A stretch of 64,000 nt of DNA from a virus. The first letter of the stretch is position 1, and each line of letters begins with the position of its first letter. The notes beneath the pieces are model-generated. The model saw nothing but the letters and a program-made list of their open reading frames with translations, had not been told where the DNA came from and did no database searches. The translations under genes and the position numbers were made by a program. Positions 1 through 60,247 of this stretch are shown piece by piece. The stretch covers positions 1-64,000 of IMG/VR virus record IMGVR_UViG_3300015360_000043; one strand, written 5' to 3'.

Positions 1-5
1 CGCGC

Positions 6-41
6 CCTCACCGAACGCCTCACCGAACGCCTCACCGAACG
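6..41. repeat. Three tandem 12-bp repeats (CCTCACCGAACG)
   Basis: Three perfect, contiguous copies of CCTCACCGAACG lie at 6-17, 18-29 and 30-41, about 25 bp upstream of a promoter-like sequence and 100 bp upstream of the gene at 140. The array touches the window edge, so more copies may lie outside. Tandem short repeats just upstream of a promoter are a common form of regulator or initiator binding array. That role is inference. Confidence 0.8.
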
Positions 42-139: not shown

Positions 140-1030
140 ATGAAAATGTCTATTGAAGAGAAGCAGCGCTACGACGCTAAACGTCAAGCCGAATACCGTC
201 GCGCAAAAAAGATCATTCCATCGGTCCACTTGCCCATTGATCCGAAGCATTGCGTTTTGGCAGGCAAGGTACCCGCCTGGAAAATAGCACGCGATGAACG
301 CCAACTCGCCATCATGCTCGATCTGCAAAGACGATTCATCGTGTTGGCAACTCCGAGATACATTGAATCAACCGCGCCAATCATCAGCGCCCAAGAACAA
401 TTAGCACTTGCCTCCAATCCAACCGGACTATCAGACCACAACCGGAATCACATAATCCTATACTCGGAGCTGTTATCGGCAATGCGCAAACCGAACGATA
501 TCCTAGTTCACCGCCCCAACACTCCAGACGAAAAACTAGACGCTAACACAGGCCGCAACGCTGGATTCATCGAATCACGACGGTCGTGGTTTTGTCGGCC
601 TGTTGCGATACTACCCGATCCACTCAAGCCGTCTAAAGCTGAGATGAAACGCCGCGCATACTTTTTAAGCTTGATTGCGGAGTGGCAAGTGAAAAAGGTT
701 GATAACAACATGCGACGGCAGCGTCACGGCATCCCGTTTGATATCTCAGAACCTGAAGTGACTGACTTCCACGGTGGACTGGTACCCAGCGCCCCGCCGG
801 ACTACATGAGAGTGCAATCCAGCGCGACACTCAAGCTAGCTGCACGCGCATCAATGTCAGAACGCGCCAACGCCACCATCAAGGCATTCAATGCGCTACA
901 GGCGCAAGTGGACAGCAGGGAGAATGAACTAGACATCTATATGACAGACGCCGATATGGCTCGTTCGCACGGCGCATTGACCATTACACAGCGGGGTATC
1001 CCGTATCTAAGTCTGCTAGCACGACGTTGA
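140..1030 (+). CDS. Uncharacterised basic protein, 296 aa; candidate for the replication/maintenance module
   Basis: I do not recognise this protein. It begins with a charged, probably helical segment (residues 1-27) and has a long middle region rich in Arg, Lys and Pro. The ATG at 140 is preceded by AAGGAG at 124-129; a second ATG at 146 is possible. The gene stands alone between a promoter with upstream repeats and its own terminator (1061-1096). It lies directly next to a parS-like site and iterons, which makes an initiator or DNA-binding role plausible, but no winged-helix Rep domain can be seen. It looks richer in A+T than the virion genes, which hints at a separate origin. Confidence 0.75.
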   Translation: MKMSIEEKQRYDAKRQAEYRRAKKIIPSVHLPIDPKHCVLAGKVPAWKIARDERQLAIMLDLQRRFIVLATPRYIESTAPIISAQEQLALASNPTGLSDHNRNHIILYSELLSAMRKPNDILVHRPNTPDEKLDANTGRNAGFIESRRSWFCRPVAILPDPLKPSKAEMKRRAYFLSLIAEWQVKKVDNNMRRQRHGIPFDISEPEVTDFHGGLVPSAPPDYMRVQSSATLKLAARASMSERANATIKAFNALQAQVDSRENELDIYMTDADMARSHGALTITQRGIPYLSLLARR

Positions 1031-1060
1031 TATCCCTCCCGCTAATCGCCTCCCTCTAAG

Positions 1061-1096
1061 GCCGCCCTATCCCTCACCGGACGGGCGGCTTTTTTT
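1061..1096 (+). terminator. Rho-independent terminator after the gene at 140
   Basis: A 7-bp stem GCCGCCC (1061-1067) and GGGCGGC (1083-1089) is followed directly by seven T residues (1090-1096). It isolates the 140-1030 gene from what follows. Confidence 0.85.
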
Positions 1097-1129: not shown

Positions 1130-1145
1130 TGTTCCACGTGGAACC
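1130..1145. promoter_or_regulatory. parS-like centromere site
   Basis: TGTTCCACGTGGAACC contains a perfect 14-bp palindrome (GTTCCAC/GTGGAAC). It fits the conserved chromosomal parS consensus TGTTNCACGTGNAACA at 15 of 16 positions; the exact 16-mer is, as I recall, a form used in Pseudomonas chromosomes. ParB binds parS and, with ParA, segregates chromosomes and plasmids. A second inverted repeat, GGTATG (1113-1118) and CATACC (1124-1129), abuts it on the left. No ParA or ParB gene is recognisable in the window, so a partner would come from the host or from outside the window. Confidence 0.7.
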
Positions 1146-1256: not shown

Positions 1257-1381
1257 ACTTAGTAACACCCACTTACACCACTTAGTAACATCGACTTACT
1301 TGACTTAGTAACATGAGTAAGTCAGATGGGGGGGACCCGACCCCCCGACTTAGTAAGTGACTTAGTAACATCGAGTAAGTG
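1257..1381. repeat. Iteron-like array of ACTTAGTAAC with inverted GAGTAAGT copies
   Basis: ACTTAGTAAC occurs at 1257, 1280, 1303 and 1360, with a variant ending AAG at 1348. The first three are 23 bp apart, and 1303 to 1348 is 45 bp. Each of the main copies is followed by a shorter ACTTAC or its inverse GTAAGT, giving units with dyad symmetry (for example GACTTA at 1302 with TAAGTC at 1318). A hairpin of seven G and six C (1328-1346) splits the array. A 22-23-bp pitch is typical of iterons bound by plasmid replication initiators. Function is inferred. Confidence 0.75.
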
Positions 1382-1650
1382 ACGGAACGGCACTTAGGTG
1401 ACGGACGGGGTTTGGAAATTTTTGCAAAAAAAATTAGGATCAGAAGTGAGAGGTGTGTAAACGAGCCCGCGGCCCCCCGCCCCCCGCCCCCGAAGGGGGC
1501 ACGAGAGGGGCACGAGAGGTAGCCGGAGGGGAGGTAGCCCGCGAGGTAATTTTACCGCCGGCGGCCCGGCCCTGTCAACCCCCGAAGGGGGTCCGAGCGT
1601 GGCCCCGAAGGGGGTCCCCCCGGCGGTCTCCCCGGCGATAGCCCCCCGGC

Positions 1651-1665: not shown

Positions 1666-2232
1666 ATGGATCCACGTAGCAAAATTGACCCCAGGGCGCA
1701 GGCCCGCGTGGATGCTTTGACCAGCGCCGCCCGAGCCCGCGACGGCCAAATGGAAGGCTACGCCGACATGCTCGGTCCTTTTGGGGGTCCCGAGGCCGGT
1801 TTGCTAAACAGCATGGCCTTCCCGGTATACAAAGCCTCCACCGCGCTCGCCAAGGCATCCGGCCCCGGAAAACTCCTACCGCTTTTTGACGAAGCCAAAA
1901 GCATGTCAGCCTCGGCTCGAAAATCCCTCATATCCGAAATGAAGGACTTCATGGGGGCGTGGTACCCGGGCAAGCTCGACAAGCCCGAGTGGCTGCGTAA
2001 CTGGGCCGAAAGTCTAGGCAAAGGCGGCGGGTCAAACGCCGAAATCCTCGGCACCATCCCGCAAGAGCTCACCCAATCCCTCTACCAATCCCTGAAGCAC
2101 CAAGGCTACGGCGGCGTAAAAAGTGCGGCCAAAGGGTCGCGGGACTGGGAGGATATCCTAAAGTTTGAGCAAGGTAACCCGAACTATCTTCCAAAAGCAC
2201 CATACCCTTCGCAGACTCGTACAAAAAAATGA
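1666..2232 (+). CDS. Hypothetical protein, 188 aa, first gene of the virion block
   Basis: Not recognised. It is soluble, with Gly- and Ser-rich segments and no membrane helix. The only ATG near the 5' end lies six bases after a -10-like element with no ribosome binding site. It precedes three genes with HExxH motifs. Codon use (many GCC, GGC and AAG) matches the downstream virion genes, so it is probably real. Possible role in the virion or in early takeover; unknown. Confidence 0.65.
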   Translation: MDPRSKIDPRAQARVDALTSAARARDGQMEGYADMLGPFGGPEAGLLNSMAFPVYKASTALAKASGPGKLLPLFDEAKSMSASARKSLISEMKDFMGAWYPGKLDKPEWLRNWAESLGKGGGSNAEILGTIPQELTQSLYQSLKHQGYGGVKSAAKGSRDWEDILKFEQGNPNYLPKAPYPSQTRTKK

Positions 2233-2350
2233 GTACTTTTTCTACAAACCGGGTGCCCACGAAGGGGGCACAGGGTAGCGAGATACGCTCGAAGAATGCA
2301 AGGCTGACTTGCATGAGGGGACCCGGCTGCGCCGGGCTACAGGAATAACT

Positions 2351-3046
2351 ATGGCAGAACTTACTCCAAAACAAAAACGTGACCAGCAAAGAGACATAAC
2401 CCGTAGCGAGAAAAAGTACGAAATTGCTGGTACCATGTCAACTCTGTTTAATAAACGAATTGCATATGATCGCCTGTATAAAACGCCGATAACAGAAGGT
2501 GACACTGGCGGCGCTCGGGGAGTTACCACGAGGGTGAGCTCGGCCTCTCCGACTCACAGCAAAATTACCCTACCGCTGGATCGTAAATTGCGATCGTTCA
2601 GCCCCAGTGACGAAAATACGCCGGGTGGCAGGACCATGGAAGAGATGATGGACTCTCACAAGTCCACCATGAACCACGAAATGATTCATGTGCTCCAAAA
2701 CATGGTACCCGACCAGAATTATAAGTCCCTCAGTAAACTGAGAGATAACAACTCTGCTGGGAAGAGACTCATGAGGAAATTCCAGCCTACCGGGTACGAC
2801 GGCGACGAATTCGAAGCGTATTTGCTTTCGGATACCGCAAAAGATAATCCGCAGCTCAATGAGGCGCTGGGTCTTGGCACTGCCAACCGGCATCTAACCA
2901 ATACGATGGAAAGGATGCTGGAGTATTTTAGACCTTCCCCTCGAAGAGAGCTTGAAGAGGCCCGAAATGAATTGTTGAATACCTACCAGCCGGGCCATCG
3001 CAAAATCATAGAAAATATGAACAACCCCCGCCGGCTACAGGAATAA
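2351..3046 (+). CDS. Putative zincin-like metalloprotein, 231 aa (first of a tandem pair)
   Basis: The protein has HEMIH at residues 109-113, a canonical HExxH zinc motif in a predicted helix, followed about 40 residues later by an EFEAY segment whose Glu155 could be the third ligand, as in gluzincins. It aligns along its whole length with the next gene, including the N-terminal TPKQKRD and FEAY(L/M)LSD. The start was chosen at 2351 because it matches the paralogue's N-terminus and follows an AGGAATA ribosome site identical to that of the next gene. A longer open frame from 2309 is less likely. Peptidase activity is inferred from the motif only. Confidence 0.75.
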   Translation: MAELTPKQKRDQQRDITRSEKKYEIAGTMSTLFNKRIAYDRLYKTPITEGDTGGARGVTTRVSSASPTHSKITLPLDRKLRSFSPSDENTPGGRTMEEMMDSHKSTMNHEMIHVLQNMVPDQNYKSLSKLRDNNSAGKRLMRKFQPTGYDGDEFEAYLLSDTAKDNPQLNEALGLGTANRHLTNTMERMLEYFRPSPRRELEEARNELLNTYQPGHRKIIENMNNPRRLQE

Positions 3047-3048
3047 TC

Positions 3049-3738
3049 ATGCCCGAGCCTACACCAAAACAAAAACGCGACCGCCAGAAACGAATTAACA
3101 AGGAGCTCGAACCCTACGAGATGTTGGGTAACATGCACTTCGCGATGGACAGGCCCGTGGCTTATGATCGACGGTTTAAAACGCCGATATTCGAAAAAAC
3201 CCTGCCCTCCAACATCGGCGCGACTACCACCCGAGTGACCGACACCTTTTCCCCCTCCAACAGCGCTATCACCATACCCAAGGGCTCGCGGTCGTTTAGT
3301 CACGAAAAGGCCAAGGCGCAGGGCAAGACCATGGACGACATGGTGGACGAATTCGGGGGCACTATGAAGCATGAGCTGATGCACGTACTCCAAAACATGG
3401 AACCCCACCTGATTGGCCCTACAATGAAGAAGCTCTGGACTAATAGGTCTCAGGGGCGTAAAGCCGTCAGTGCCTTCCCCGAAGGGTACAACGATCGTGA
3501 ATTCGAAGCCTACATGCTATCCGACACTGGAAAGCAAAACAAGGACATCAACAAATCGCTCAAACTTGGCCAACCTAACCGACCGCTGAATGGTATCCTG
3601 GATAAGATAATGGAGCTTATGCAACCTTCCCCTCAAAGAGAAGCCGAATACGCCAGGGATGAATTGATGGATACCTCCCAGCCGGGTCGTCGCAGAATAG
3701 TTAACGATATCATGGGAGACCGGCGTCCCCCGGAATAA
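3049..3738 (+). CDS. Putative zincin-like metalloprotein, 229 aa (second of a tandem pair)
   Basis: This is a paralogue of the preceding gene. HELMH sits at residues 108-112, and Glu153 in EFEAYM is a possible third zinc ligand. The upstream sequence (GGCTACAGGAATAA) repeats that of the first copy, so the duplication included the ribosome binding site. The start lies two bases after the preceding stop, so the two are probably co-translated. The conserved C-terminal RRIV/RKII-type segment is shared. Substrate unknown; possibly a virion-associated or prohead protease, or an immunity-type peptidase. Confidence 0.75.
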   Translation: MPEPTPKQKRDRQKRINKELEPYEMLGNMHFAMDRPVAYDRRFKTPIFEKTLPSNIGATTTRVTDTFSPSNSAITIPKGSRSFSHEKAKAQGKTMDDMVDEFGGTMKHELMHVLQNMEPHLIGPTMKKLWTNRSQGRKAVSAFPEGYNDREFEAYMLSDTGKQNKDINKSLKLGQPNRPLNGILDKIMELMQPSPQREAEYARDELMDTSQPGRRRIVNDIMGDRRPPE

Positions 3739-3743
3739 TACCA

Positions 3744-4913
3744 ATGCCAGACCCCAGACTCTTAGAAAACTACCTCGCTAGGGCCGCTGAGGAAAACCGA
3801 TCGGCCCCCCGGAACCTCCAGGGCAACCGGATAGCCTCACAGGGCACTACAGACGCCAGAATGGCCAAGCTGCGTGGCGAGGTCGAGTCTGGAGGGGACG
3901 GCCTCATGGCCGGCTGGGGAGACGTCGCTACCATGGTCAGCGGGGCCAGAGACCCCCTCATGGAGGCCCTAGGCCAACTGACCCCCACGGGCAGCGGGGC
4001 CGAGTATCTCCCGGCGATGATCCCGACCGGGAAAAACCTCGGGAAATTCACGGCCAAAATGAAAGACGCTCGAAAGACCATCGACCCTAGGCTAAGCGGA
4101 GACCTAGCCGACGCGATGGCCTATATGACGGCGAGGTACCCTAACCGTAGCAAGGCGGCTAAGATTGTGGGACTGCGTAAGGATTTGAATCACGATACAA
4201 GCACCTACGGCAGTTTCTACCCCCAAGCCAATGCAATAGTTGTAGGAGACGGTCCAAAACTTCCCAAACTTGTTGAAACCCTCGCGCATGAAACCCAACA
4301 TGCGGTGGATCACAAACGGCTCGGTCGTAACAATCTGAAAAAGGACTCTTTTACAAACTACCAAGATGTAGGCACCTTACAGGAAATGGGCTTCAGCCCT
4401 GAATACGCCTACGAGGTATACGCCAATCAGCCGATTGAGCGCCGGGCCTTCAAAGCCGGCAAAACCGGTGCCGACGGCTTAGAGGAGTTCCGTAATCTCC
4501 AGGACTACATGATCTCCGAGGGAGGCTTCAACCCCAAAGACGCCTACGACTTCTCCAGGAAGAGAAAGCCCAAATTCTACGGTACTGAAAAACCCATATC
4601 TTCTTCTTCTTCTAGCGGAAAATCCTCGGTGTTTGACAAGATCCACAAGTTCATGATGGGAATTGACCAAGCTGTCCCGCCACTCAGGGACTCCCTTCCC
4701 GTAAAACGAGGTGTAGCGCAGCAGAACCTTCGAGAGGCCATCACCTCCGAAGCCCTGGACACCCTGCCGGCTATCTCCCCCAAGCTAACCCGCAAAGTCC
4801 CTTCCGACGCCTTCTCGGAGCTCTCCTGGAAAATGGACCGGCCCAAACACCCCCGGATCGCGCAGCAAGAAGCTCTCGACGCGGCGCTCAACCTCTTCAG
4901 AACCGGGAAGTAA
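3744..4913 (+). CDS. Putative zincin-like protein of the large polyvalent protein-associated type, 389 aa
   Basis: HETQH at residues 182-186 lies in an AHETQHAVDH segment, followed by YANQPIERRA (Glu232), a pattern seen in polyvalent-protein-associated zincin domains of phages. The N-terminal 110 residues are Gly- and Pro-containing and weakly conserved in character; a Ser-rich linker (ISSSSSSGKSS) follows the zincin region, and about 100 C-terminal residues form a separate segment. The start lies five bases after the previous stop. The last 17 bp overlap an opposing small gene. Third HExxH protein in a row; no sequence identity to the first two beyond the motif is obvious. Confidence 0.75.
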   Translation: MPDPRLLENYLARAAEENRSAPRNLQGNRIASQGTTDARMAKLRGEVESGGDGLMAGWGDVATMVSGARDPLMEALGQLTPTGSGAEYLPAMIPTGKNLGKFTAKMKDARKTIDPRLSGDLADAMAYMTARYPNRSKAAKIVGLRKDLNHDTSTYGSFYPQANAIVVGDGPKLPKLVETLAHETQHAVDHKRLGRNNLKKDSFTNYQDVGTLQEMGFSPEYAYEVYANQPIERRAFKAGKTGADGLEEFRNLQDYMISEGGFNPKDAYDFSRKRKPKFYGTEKPISSSSSSGKSSVFDKIHKFMMGIDQAVPPLRDSLPVKRGVAQQNLREAITSEALDTLPAISPKLTRKVPSDAFSELSWKMDRPKHPRIAQQEALDAALNLFRTGK

Positions 4914-5064
4914 TCGCGGCCCGTCGCCCGCCGGCCACCAACCGGCAAATGTGACTCCGCGTCACCCCCAGAGCTTTCGCCAACTGGTTCTGGTTCAAAA
5001 CGCCCGTGTCCCACATGAGGCACACCCACTTTACATCCGCCTCGCTCAATTTGTACTTCGGCAT
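4897..5064 (-). CDS. Small helix-turn-helix protein, 55 aa, opposite strand
   Basis: Residues 24-48 (NQNQLAKALGVTRSHICRLV and onward) have the classic helix-turn-helix pattern: Q-LA-LGV in helix 2, the turn, then R-HI-RL in the recognition helix, then a basic Gly-Arg tail. It is read against the flanking virion genes, overlapping the 3' end of the gene at 3744 by 17 bp. There is no Shine-Dalgarno sequence, but TATAAT ends exactly six bases before the ATG, suggesting a leaderless transcript. It could be a Cro-like or terminase-small-like DNA-binding protein. Only 55 codons, but the HTH pattern is strong. Confidence 0.6.
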   Translation of the reverse strand: MPKYKLSEADVKWVCLMWDTGVLNQNQLAKALGVTRSHICRLVAGGRRAAITSRF

Positions 5065-5121
5065 GCTTTTATTATAGTCAACATCCGCCTACCCCGGCCT
5101 ACTCTACCCTTAGGAGACCTC

Positions 5122-5532
5122 ATGTCCACTTACAACATCACCCTCGCCAATGACGGATCGGGCAACATTACGCCCACGGTTCGCCGGATTGGTACTCCCG
5201 CCTCGGGCGGAACCTTGCTTACCATCCCCGCCGGCGAGCTCTTCCCGGGCACCACCACTTTGCTGCTCGGCTTGGCCGGGGGCGCGGCTCTTCGCGCTGC
5301 TCTCAACAGCTACGCAACCAATCCGACGGGCGCGTACCATATTACCCTGACCGACGATGGCACCGGGGTCTTCACCCCCTTGGTCCGACTCGGCGGCACC
5401 GCGGCCTCTGGCGGGACCGTGCTCACTCAGCCGGCGGGCGAACTCTTCCCCGGCAGCACCACCTTGCTGATGGGCTTGGCCGGCGGCTCCGCACTTCGCG
5501 CCGCGCTAAACGACCGATCGGCAGGCAATTAA
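5122..5532 (+). CDS. Two-repeat virion-type protein, 136 aa
   Basis: The protein consists of two copies of a roughly 60-residue repeat. Each runs from Y(N/H)ITL, through GGT, to PAGELFPG(T/S)TTLL and GLAGG(A/S)ALRAALN, so an internal duplication is plain. The ATG at 5122 is chosen because AGGAG lies at 5112-5116; open codons upstream to 4951 lack a start with a ribosome site. It precedes fibre-like genes. I do not know the family; a decoration or spike-associated role is possible. Confidence 0.8.
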   Translation: MSTYNITLANDGSGNITPTVRRIGTPASGGTLLTIPAGELFPGTTTLLLGLAGGAALRAALNSYATNPTGAYHITLTDDGTGVFTPLVRLGGTAASGGTVLTQPAGELFPGSTTLLMGLAGGSALRAALNDRSAGN

Positions 5533-33528: not shown

Positions 33529-34053
33529 CTAGCTTGCCTTCACGCCGCCAAGGGCAGCCAGCACCCGCTTAACGACCCCGGGGACTACCTCATCCGAGGG
33601 CACCTCGACGTTTGCAGGTTCGACTACTTCGCTCGGACTCACTTCAGCTTCCTCAGACCTTCCCGTAGTCGCACCCAGCACCATATCCGCCAACACCTCC
33701 GGGACGTCGGGGTAATTCAGCCCGCCTTGTGTGTTGATCCACACCCGCAAGATATTCACGTAGTTAATGATGTCATCAAAGGTGTCATCCAAGGACTCGT
33801 CGCTGAAGTTCGCCGGTAGGCTGCCGGTGGTTTTGAAAACCGTCAGTACATTTCGAAGACGGCCAAACTTATCTCCCACCCGGGTCATGATGCCGTCTAC
33901 AACAGTAGTGTCCGCAAAGGACGCCGACGACAAAAAGTTCTCAAAGGGCTCGTCTTCATTTGCGTACTTCAGAACCCTTTCCCGCTGTACACTGGCCGCC
34001 CGGATAAGCGCCATCTGACATAGGGCCAAATACTTGTTCTTGTTAGTCATCAA
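33529..34053 (-). CDS. DUF1599/MazG-like nucleotide-associated protein, 174 aa
   Basis: The segment VGDKFGRLRNVLTVFKTTGS, followed by FSDESLDDTFDDIINYVNIL, resembles the helical core of phage DUF1599 or MazG-like proteins, where acidic residues bind Mg and a nucleotide pyrophosphate. The C-terminal 50 residues are an acidic Val/Pro/Glu tail. Overlaps the phosphoesterase gene by 11 bases. Nucleotide hydrolysis is an inference. Confidence 0.55.
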   Translation of the reverse strand: MMTNKNKYLALCQMALIRAASVQRERVLKYANEDEPFENFLSSASFADTTVVDGIMTRVGDKFGRLRNVLTVFKTTGSLPANFSDESLDDTFDDIINYVNILRVWINTQGGLNYPDVPEVLADMVLGATTGRSEEAEVSPSEVVEPANVEVPSDEVVPGVVKRVLAALGGVKAS

Positions 34054-59626: not shown

Positions 59627-60247
59627 TCAGATGGAATGCTTGCGCTTCCAGGTGACCCATGTGATAGCTTGCAATTGATGCGGCTTGAGGCCGACGGTGG
59701 CGGCAGCGGCCACGTAGGCGGCGACCATTTCACTGTATCGTTGCTCTGTCAATCTAACCATACCATGTGTCGTGAAGCGCCACAAGTGCGCTACAGAGTA
59801 CGCATGGGCGTCAATCGTGACAATACCAGCCGTCCTAGGATGCTGGATGTTGTGGGCGAAGGCGCTGACCTTCGGCCCTTTCAGGATCTGTTTAAACGGT
59901 TCGCTTTTGCGGTCGGCGGCGATGATCGCTTTGGCCTTTTTCAGGTTAGCCTTGTAGCAGCGGTACGGACCCCGCTTGCCCAGGACGGCCATTTCTGCGT
60001 CCCGCATGTTATCCTCCCACCTGGAATTAGGTGACAGGGCCGCGATGACGTGGCAGACCGCCGGGACGCTAACCCGGCCTATCAGGGCCAACCTATGCGC
60101 CATCCGGTTCGCGTTCCAATACCAGCAGGTGCCGAATTTTACCTCTAGCGCGTGAGCCTGCCGGTAAACCGTCAAGATATTTTCAGCCGCTTCTTCCGTG
60201 CAGCACCAAGGAGGTGCGCCCGGCTCGAACAGACGCTGGGGAGTCAT
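59627..60247 (-). CDS. DUF7178-type phage protein, 206 aa
   Basis: The segments VCHVIAALSPNSRWEDNMRD, YKANLKKAKAII and FKQILKGPKVSAFAHNIQHP with VTIDAHAYSVA match a phage family (DUF7178 as I recall) with conserved ALSPN-W--N, LKGPKV--F--NI and iD-HA motifs, reminiscent of helix-hairpin-helix glycosylases. Function unknown. ATGA overlap with the upstream gene; contains GTTTAAAC (59890-59897). Confidence 0.65.
   Translation of the reverse strand: MTPQRLFEPGAPPWCCTEEAAENILTVYRQAHALEVKFGTCWYWNANRMAHRLALIGRVSVPAVCHVIAALSPNSRWEDNMRDAEMAVLGKRGPYRCYKANLKKAKAIIAADRKSEPFKQILKGPKVSAFAHNIQHPRTAGIVTIDAHAYSVAHLWRFTTHGMVRLTEQRYSEMVAAYVAAAATVGLKPHQLQAITWVTWKRKHSI

Follow-up and report, generated by a model that had tools for sequence, protein, structure and literature searches.

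Does the non-coding stretch near the left end of this phage record, in which a short word recurs on a regular pitch, mark the place where replication starts? The window analysed here, the whole 64,000-nucleotide stretch of a 64,773-base virus record, had been given a first-pass annotation, which proposed that the repeats and the A/T-rich DNA behind them form an iteron-type origin and, with a parS to their left, the compact origin-partition locus of a phage-plasmid. Judged from its layout here and in relatives, the region at about 1100-1440 may be the replication-control region, and probable origin, of a group of uncultivated 62-68-kb phages, a reading to which we give an even chance.

The repeat array and the elements around it

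The features on which the argument depends are listed below, from left to right; G005 is a related contig.

140..1030, plus strand: gene for a 296-aa protein, no homologue found
1058..1092, plus strand: intrinsic terminator-like hairpin and T run, AAGGCCGCCC...GGGCGGCTTTTTTT (inverted repeat I4), 3' of gene 140-1030; left boundary of the region
1130..1145, no strand assigned: parS-type palindrome TGTTCCACGTGGAACC, the single such site in the record, a 15/16 match to the chromosomal parS
1257..1312, plus strand: three exact repeats of ACTTAGTAAC on a 23-bp pitch, interleaved with ACTTA at 1271 and 1294
1328..1346, no strand assigned: G/C hairpin GGGGGGGACCCGACCCCCC, dividing the array; absent from the first-pass annotation
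1348..1380, plus strand: second half of the array, with ACTTAGTAAG (1348), ACTTAGTAAC (1360) and inverted TAAGT (1354, 1376)
1416..1435, no strand assigned: A/T block AAATTTTTGCAAAAAAAATT, a candidate unwinding element, with a near-reverse-complement counterpart at G005 1863-1882
1549..1578, minus strand: strong sigma-70-like promoter by sequence (TTGACA-18-TAAAAT, 11/12), facing the A/T block and the array
1666..2232, plus strand: first gene of the rightward structural operon, right boundary of the region; distant homologue at G005 2277-3134

The record holds four exact copies of ACTTAGTAAC, at 1257, 1280, 1303 and 1360 on the plus strand, and no further exact copy was found elsewhere in its 64,773 bases. 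These copies, together with the variant ACTTAGTAAG at 1348, lie where they had been placed previously. The 23-bp pitch proposed for them holds for three exact copies, and was recovered independently by TRF (23-bp period, 2.7 copies, 1253-1314), but after these the variant comes at a distance of 45 bp and the copy at 1360 another 12 bp on. Set against the usual description of iterons as direct repeats of ~17-23 bp that are evenly spaced, the array is regular for three copies and irregular afterwards. Each repeat had also been assigned an inverted partner; inverted TAAGT words are indeed present at 1318, 1354 and 1376, but copies 1 and 2 are followed by ACTTA in direct orientation. The ACTTA/TAAGT half-word occurs 52 times in the record, 11 of them here, in a stretch of ~140 bp.

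A repeat-density scan (8-mers, both strands, 160-bp windows) ranked the array as the top short-repeat cluster of the phage genome, with a score of 31, compared with a maximum of 13 anywhere in 100 random first-order Markov sequences of the same length as the record. As single-stranded DNA, 1245-1400 folds better than 200 shuffles (z -3.4). Neither a database gene family nor an Rfam RNA matched the array stretch, which the first-pass annotation had described as unexplained by any gene. The A/T-rich stretch reported at about 1410-1438 corresponds to the block at 1416-1435, where the stability of a 24-bp window falls in the lowest 0.1% of the record. The array is thus accompanied by the adjacent A/T-rich element expected of an iteron-type origin, a block whose putative role would be unwinding. 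Hairpins of the CCCCGAAGGGGG type are present at 1488-1502, 1580-1594 and 1603-1617, in the non-coding stretch before 1666, and another lies near the right end of the record. A 17-mer, AGTAACATCGAGTAAGT, was considered as a clue to the host and discarded, its 4 matches in genome contigs having no repeat context and being apparently due to chance. Note that the near-identical contig L005 begins at window position 1487, and the array is outside its span.

Genome layout and equivalent modules in relatives

The rightward genes, from 1666 to 32567, are structural (terminase, capsid and others), and the leftward genes, from 63249 to 32616, are those of replication (AAA_25 helicase, DNA polymerase A, Sak4, PD-DEXK nuclease, RNA ligase and polynucleotide kinase). 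The best terminase match was to a phage of the acidobacterium Tunturiibacter, at 25% identity. In G005, homologues of the right end (59627-60247) and the left end (1666-2232) of the window lie within 3.1 kb, indicating that the two ends of the record are neighbours, joined at a single junction of a circular map. This puts the array in the intergenic junction before the rightward structural operon and next to the leftward replication operon. A second relative, G011, is probably complete and circular, with terminal repeats of 127 bp. Both ends of the window phage's record, window 1-41 and record 64733-64773, consist of short tandem repeats (CCTCACCGAACG; CGCATACACG), which probably stopped the assembly of a circular genome.

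Cumulative GC skew had been suggested as a check on the origin. It turns near the junction in three genomes, those of the window phage (G000), G011 and G018, but its sign in the window phage is opposite to that in the other two, and it turns where the genes change direction. Being confounded by gene orientation, the skew does not decide the matter.

Relatives were gathered by capsid and tail-protein scans, and several of their contigs are 62-68 kb long. A search of 50,697 phage records with the tail protein gave no match, and by this measure the collection contains no close phage. Five relatives cover the region, and in all five an equivalent module occupies this position. Every one of these modules contains a short array built of AGTA/GTAC/CTAC words, and a GGGG-n-CCCC hairpin is present in most; it resembles GGGGGGGACCCGACCCCCC in G011, G014 and G018 and lies further downstream in G005. 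An A/T block is present in all modules examined, in the relatives near AAAATTTT..GC and 60-130 bp after the array; the clearest pair is formed by AAATTTTTGCAAAAAAAATT in the window and AAATTTTTTTTGCAAAATTT in G005. This intergenic junction is also where the first- or second-ranked repeat cluster of G005, G011, G014 and G018 lies. The motif AGAAGGTTCC is found at the junction in the five relatives and is absent from the window. In G011, G014 and G018 it is followed by a GGGGTNCNGACCCC hairpin; across the whole viral collection the combination was confined to exactly three contigs, each a relative already known from protein similarity.

The repeats themselves differ. The array words are GTAC in G005, G008 and G014 and ACTAC/CACTA in G011 and G018, no ACTTAGTAAC array was found in the relatives checked, and a scan of viral contigs for ACTTAGTAAC returned other two-copy matches, mostly in unrelated contexts. 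TAGTA/AGTA words are ~10-60 fold enriched in several arrays, that of the window included, a descriptive figure for which the coordinates of the relatives' arrays were picked after inspection. The comparison of modules relied on visual inspection and simple word counts, and some of the relatives' gene calls are rough. On this comparison, the layout is kept across the relatives, and the repeat words and the 23-bp pitch are not. The first-pass annotation had made conserved repeat spacing a test of its proposal, and such conservation fails here: words and spacings both differ, at the same place.

The parS site and the search for initiator and partition proteins

The parS that had been recognised to the left of the array proved to be real. 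At the same place G005 carries a perfect (16/16) site, TGTTCCACGTGGAACA; parS is present in 2 of the 6 modules (window and G005), the other module-bearing relatives being without it. The perfect 16-mer was found in 25 of 60 sampled Acidobacteriota genomes, and its reversed-pattern control never. Two copies lie at the start of parA-parB in a Bryobacterales genome (Acidobacteriota), and a gammaproteobacterial genome has copies in or near recF and gyrB. These locations, at parAB and recF/gyrB, identify the window site as a genuine chromosomal-type parS.

Viral contigs also carry this palindrome. Among 80 viral loci (L064-L143) we counted 66 perfect sites and 15 with one end base changed, compared with a chance ratio of 1:2 (P 7e-19), and 26 of the 66 perfect sites lie outside ORFs, compared with 11.5% expected (P 6e-9). 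Some of these contigs may include bacterial DNA; no ParA/ParB relatives were found by phmmer on the 80 loci. The phage contig L093 has about four parS-type sites with 46-bp repeats and an A/T-rich stretch (4790-5270), and the phage contig L123 has two upstream of a terminase-like gene (300-360). An incomplete literature search for phages carrying a host-type parS without ParB gave no direct precedent. With perfect parS palindromes so strongly over-represented in viral contigs, the group studied here could be one case among many. We suggest tentatively that some phages lacking ParB place a host chromosomal parS by their origin, where host ParB would load and tether, segregate or silence the phage DNA.

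Which protein might act at the array? The gene at 140, considered as a RepC/RepA-like initiator, is a poor candidate. Its product had no relative in Pfam, PHROG, PDB or the phage, plasmid and viral-contig sets, its single-sequence AlphaFold model was uninformative (pLDDT 36), and the gene was not detected in the relatives, some of which are fragments, making it unlikely that it encodes the initiator of the group. The protein of 33529-34053, beside the helicase gene, was also rejected: it is conserved in relatives, matched PHROGs of unknown function only and gave no sign of being an initiator. Among the ORFs scanned, many of them of unknown family, no known initiator or plasmid-type Rep was recognised. 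DnaA boxes were absent from the region in the window, and two near-boxes were seen in G005 only.

The search for partition proteins was negative as well. There was no match to the ParB family PF02195 in a Pfam search of this record, no ParA/ParB in the window phage and relatives by single-sequence phmmer (one ParA query), and no tyrosine integrase in the record. With neither ParB nor a tyrosine integrase found, the label of phage-plasmid is unsupported. What survives of the proposed compact origin-partition locus is a set of origin-like repeats beside a genuine parS, in a layout similar to that of the relatives.

Competing readings and comparison with known systems

Gene-poor, rapidly evolving repeat regions are typical of known phage origins. 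The place of the module, the order of its elements, its A/T block and its fast-changing repeats would be best explained by a replication-control region and next best by an operator/promoter region. The origin is favoured by an array that is the top repeat cluster, by a junction module found in relatives and by replication genes that make up the leftward operon. Against it stand the lack of a recognised initiator and of a DnaA-box cluster, the variable repeats and pitch, the opposite sign of the GC skew, the absence of AGAAGGTTCC from the window and a position directly before the structural operon, where regulatory repeats are expected.

It is possible, though less probable in our view, that the module controls transcription instead, and this is the main rival. 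The repeats would then be operators at which a regulator of phage or host origin sets the timing of the rightward structural operon, or of a leftward transcript from the promoter at 1578-1549, with the A/T block lying in a promoter. The immediate proximity of the structural operon, the strong leftward sigma-70-like site, the dyad symmetry of the repeats and a 21-bp match, ACTTAGTAACATCGAGTAAGT, to unrelated myophage contigs in which it precedes a gp25-like baseplate gene all agree with this. However, no counterpart of the promoter was found at the equivalent place in relatives, over 1 kb separates the module of G018 from the first structural gene called in the rightward direction, and no regulator was identified. 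As to the 21-bp match, it is common to window 1360-1380 and to GACTTAGTAACATCGAGTAAGTC, a sequence upstream of the gp25-like gene at L014 1-80, L022 3116-3200 and L040 near 3100, present as one unit in L040 and expanded in L014 and L022.

Two further explanations seem improbable to us, and about equally so. Non-coding DNA with repeats and hairpins before structural genes could serve for DNA packaging or end formation (cos/pac), but the terminase gene is 9 kb away, the contigs of G005 and G014 are continuous through the region, G011 is probably circular, and no fixed end was found here. A non-functional repeat expansion in a fast-evolving intergenic gap would account for repeat words that vary between relatives, but not for an element order and a AGAAGGTTCC motif that divergent relatives have in common at the same place. 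Least probable of all is a parS-like centromere of a phage-encoded partition system, that is, a phage-plasmid: a genuine parS lies 112 bp to the left of the array and in some phages short direct repeats in arrays serve as partition sites (PMC7157519), but neither partition proteins nor a tyrosine integrase turned up, and parS was found in a minority of the modules.

Returning to the replication-control region, the steps could be as follows. Some phage or host protein would bind the short-repeat array, the C/G hairpin and the A/T block would open next, and loading of the helicase (the RepA-like AAA_25 protein) and family-A DNA polymerase that the phage itself encodes would follow. As the phage has no ParB match, we propose that the adjoining parS would be bound by host ParB, with the possible effect of tethering or segregating the replicated DNA or of silencing promoters close by. 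Should the module be the origin, it offers a clear place to study the start of replication in an uncultivated phage group without close cultured relatives, and one in which the repeats, and so presumably the specificity of the initiator, change fast while the layout stays.

Known iteron origins (the lambda origin with its O protein, the RepA iterons of P1 and the oriV of RSF1010) consist of short tandem repeats of ~20 bp near an A/T-rich stretch, to which RSF1010 adds a G/C-rich stretch and a helicase of the RepA type. The window shares with them its tandem repeats of ~20 bp near an A/T-rich stretch, and with RSF1010 a G/C-rich stretch and a helicase, the AAA_25 protein, that the RepA type resembles. 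In contrast to these origins, it has no identified initiator, only three copies strictly on pitch, a hairpin inside the array, and a repeat sequence and pitch that change completely between relatives.

A second parallel is provided by the extrachromosomal cluster A mycobacteriophages, in which the origin lies in a non-coding stretch by the parS locus and, in some, replication depends on a non-coding RNA and not on RepA (PMC7157519). Here too an origin-like non-coding stretch adjoins parS. However, the mycobacteriophages have ParA and ParB genes of their own, and a set of 8-bp direct repeats serves as their parS (PMC7157519), whereas the parS of the window is a palindrome of the chromosomal type, with no ParB found. 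The closest likeness of the site itself is to the ParABS system of bacterial chromosomes, TGTTCCACGTGGAACA being the parS at the parAB operon of the Bryobacterales genome; it differs in lying on a phage without ParB and, in the window, in being one base off the palindrome that is perfect in G005. If host ParB binds it, the phage would borrow the chromosome-segregation machinery of its host without carrying it.
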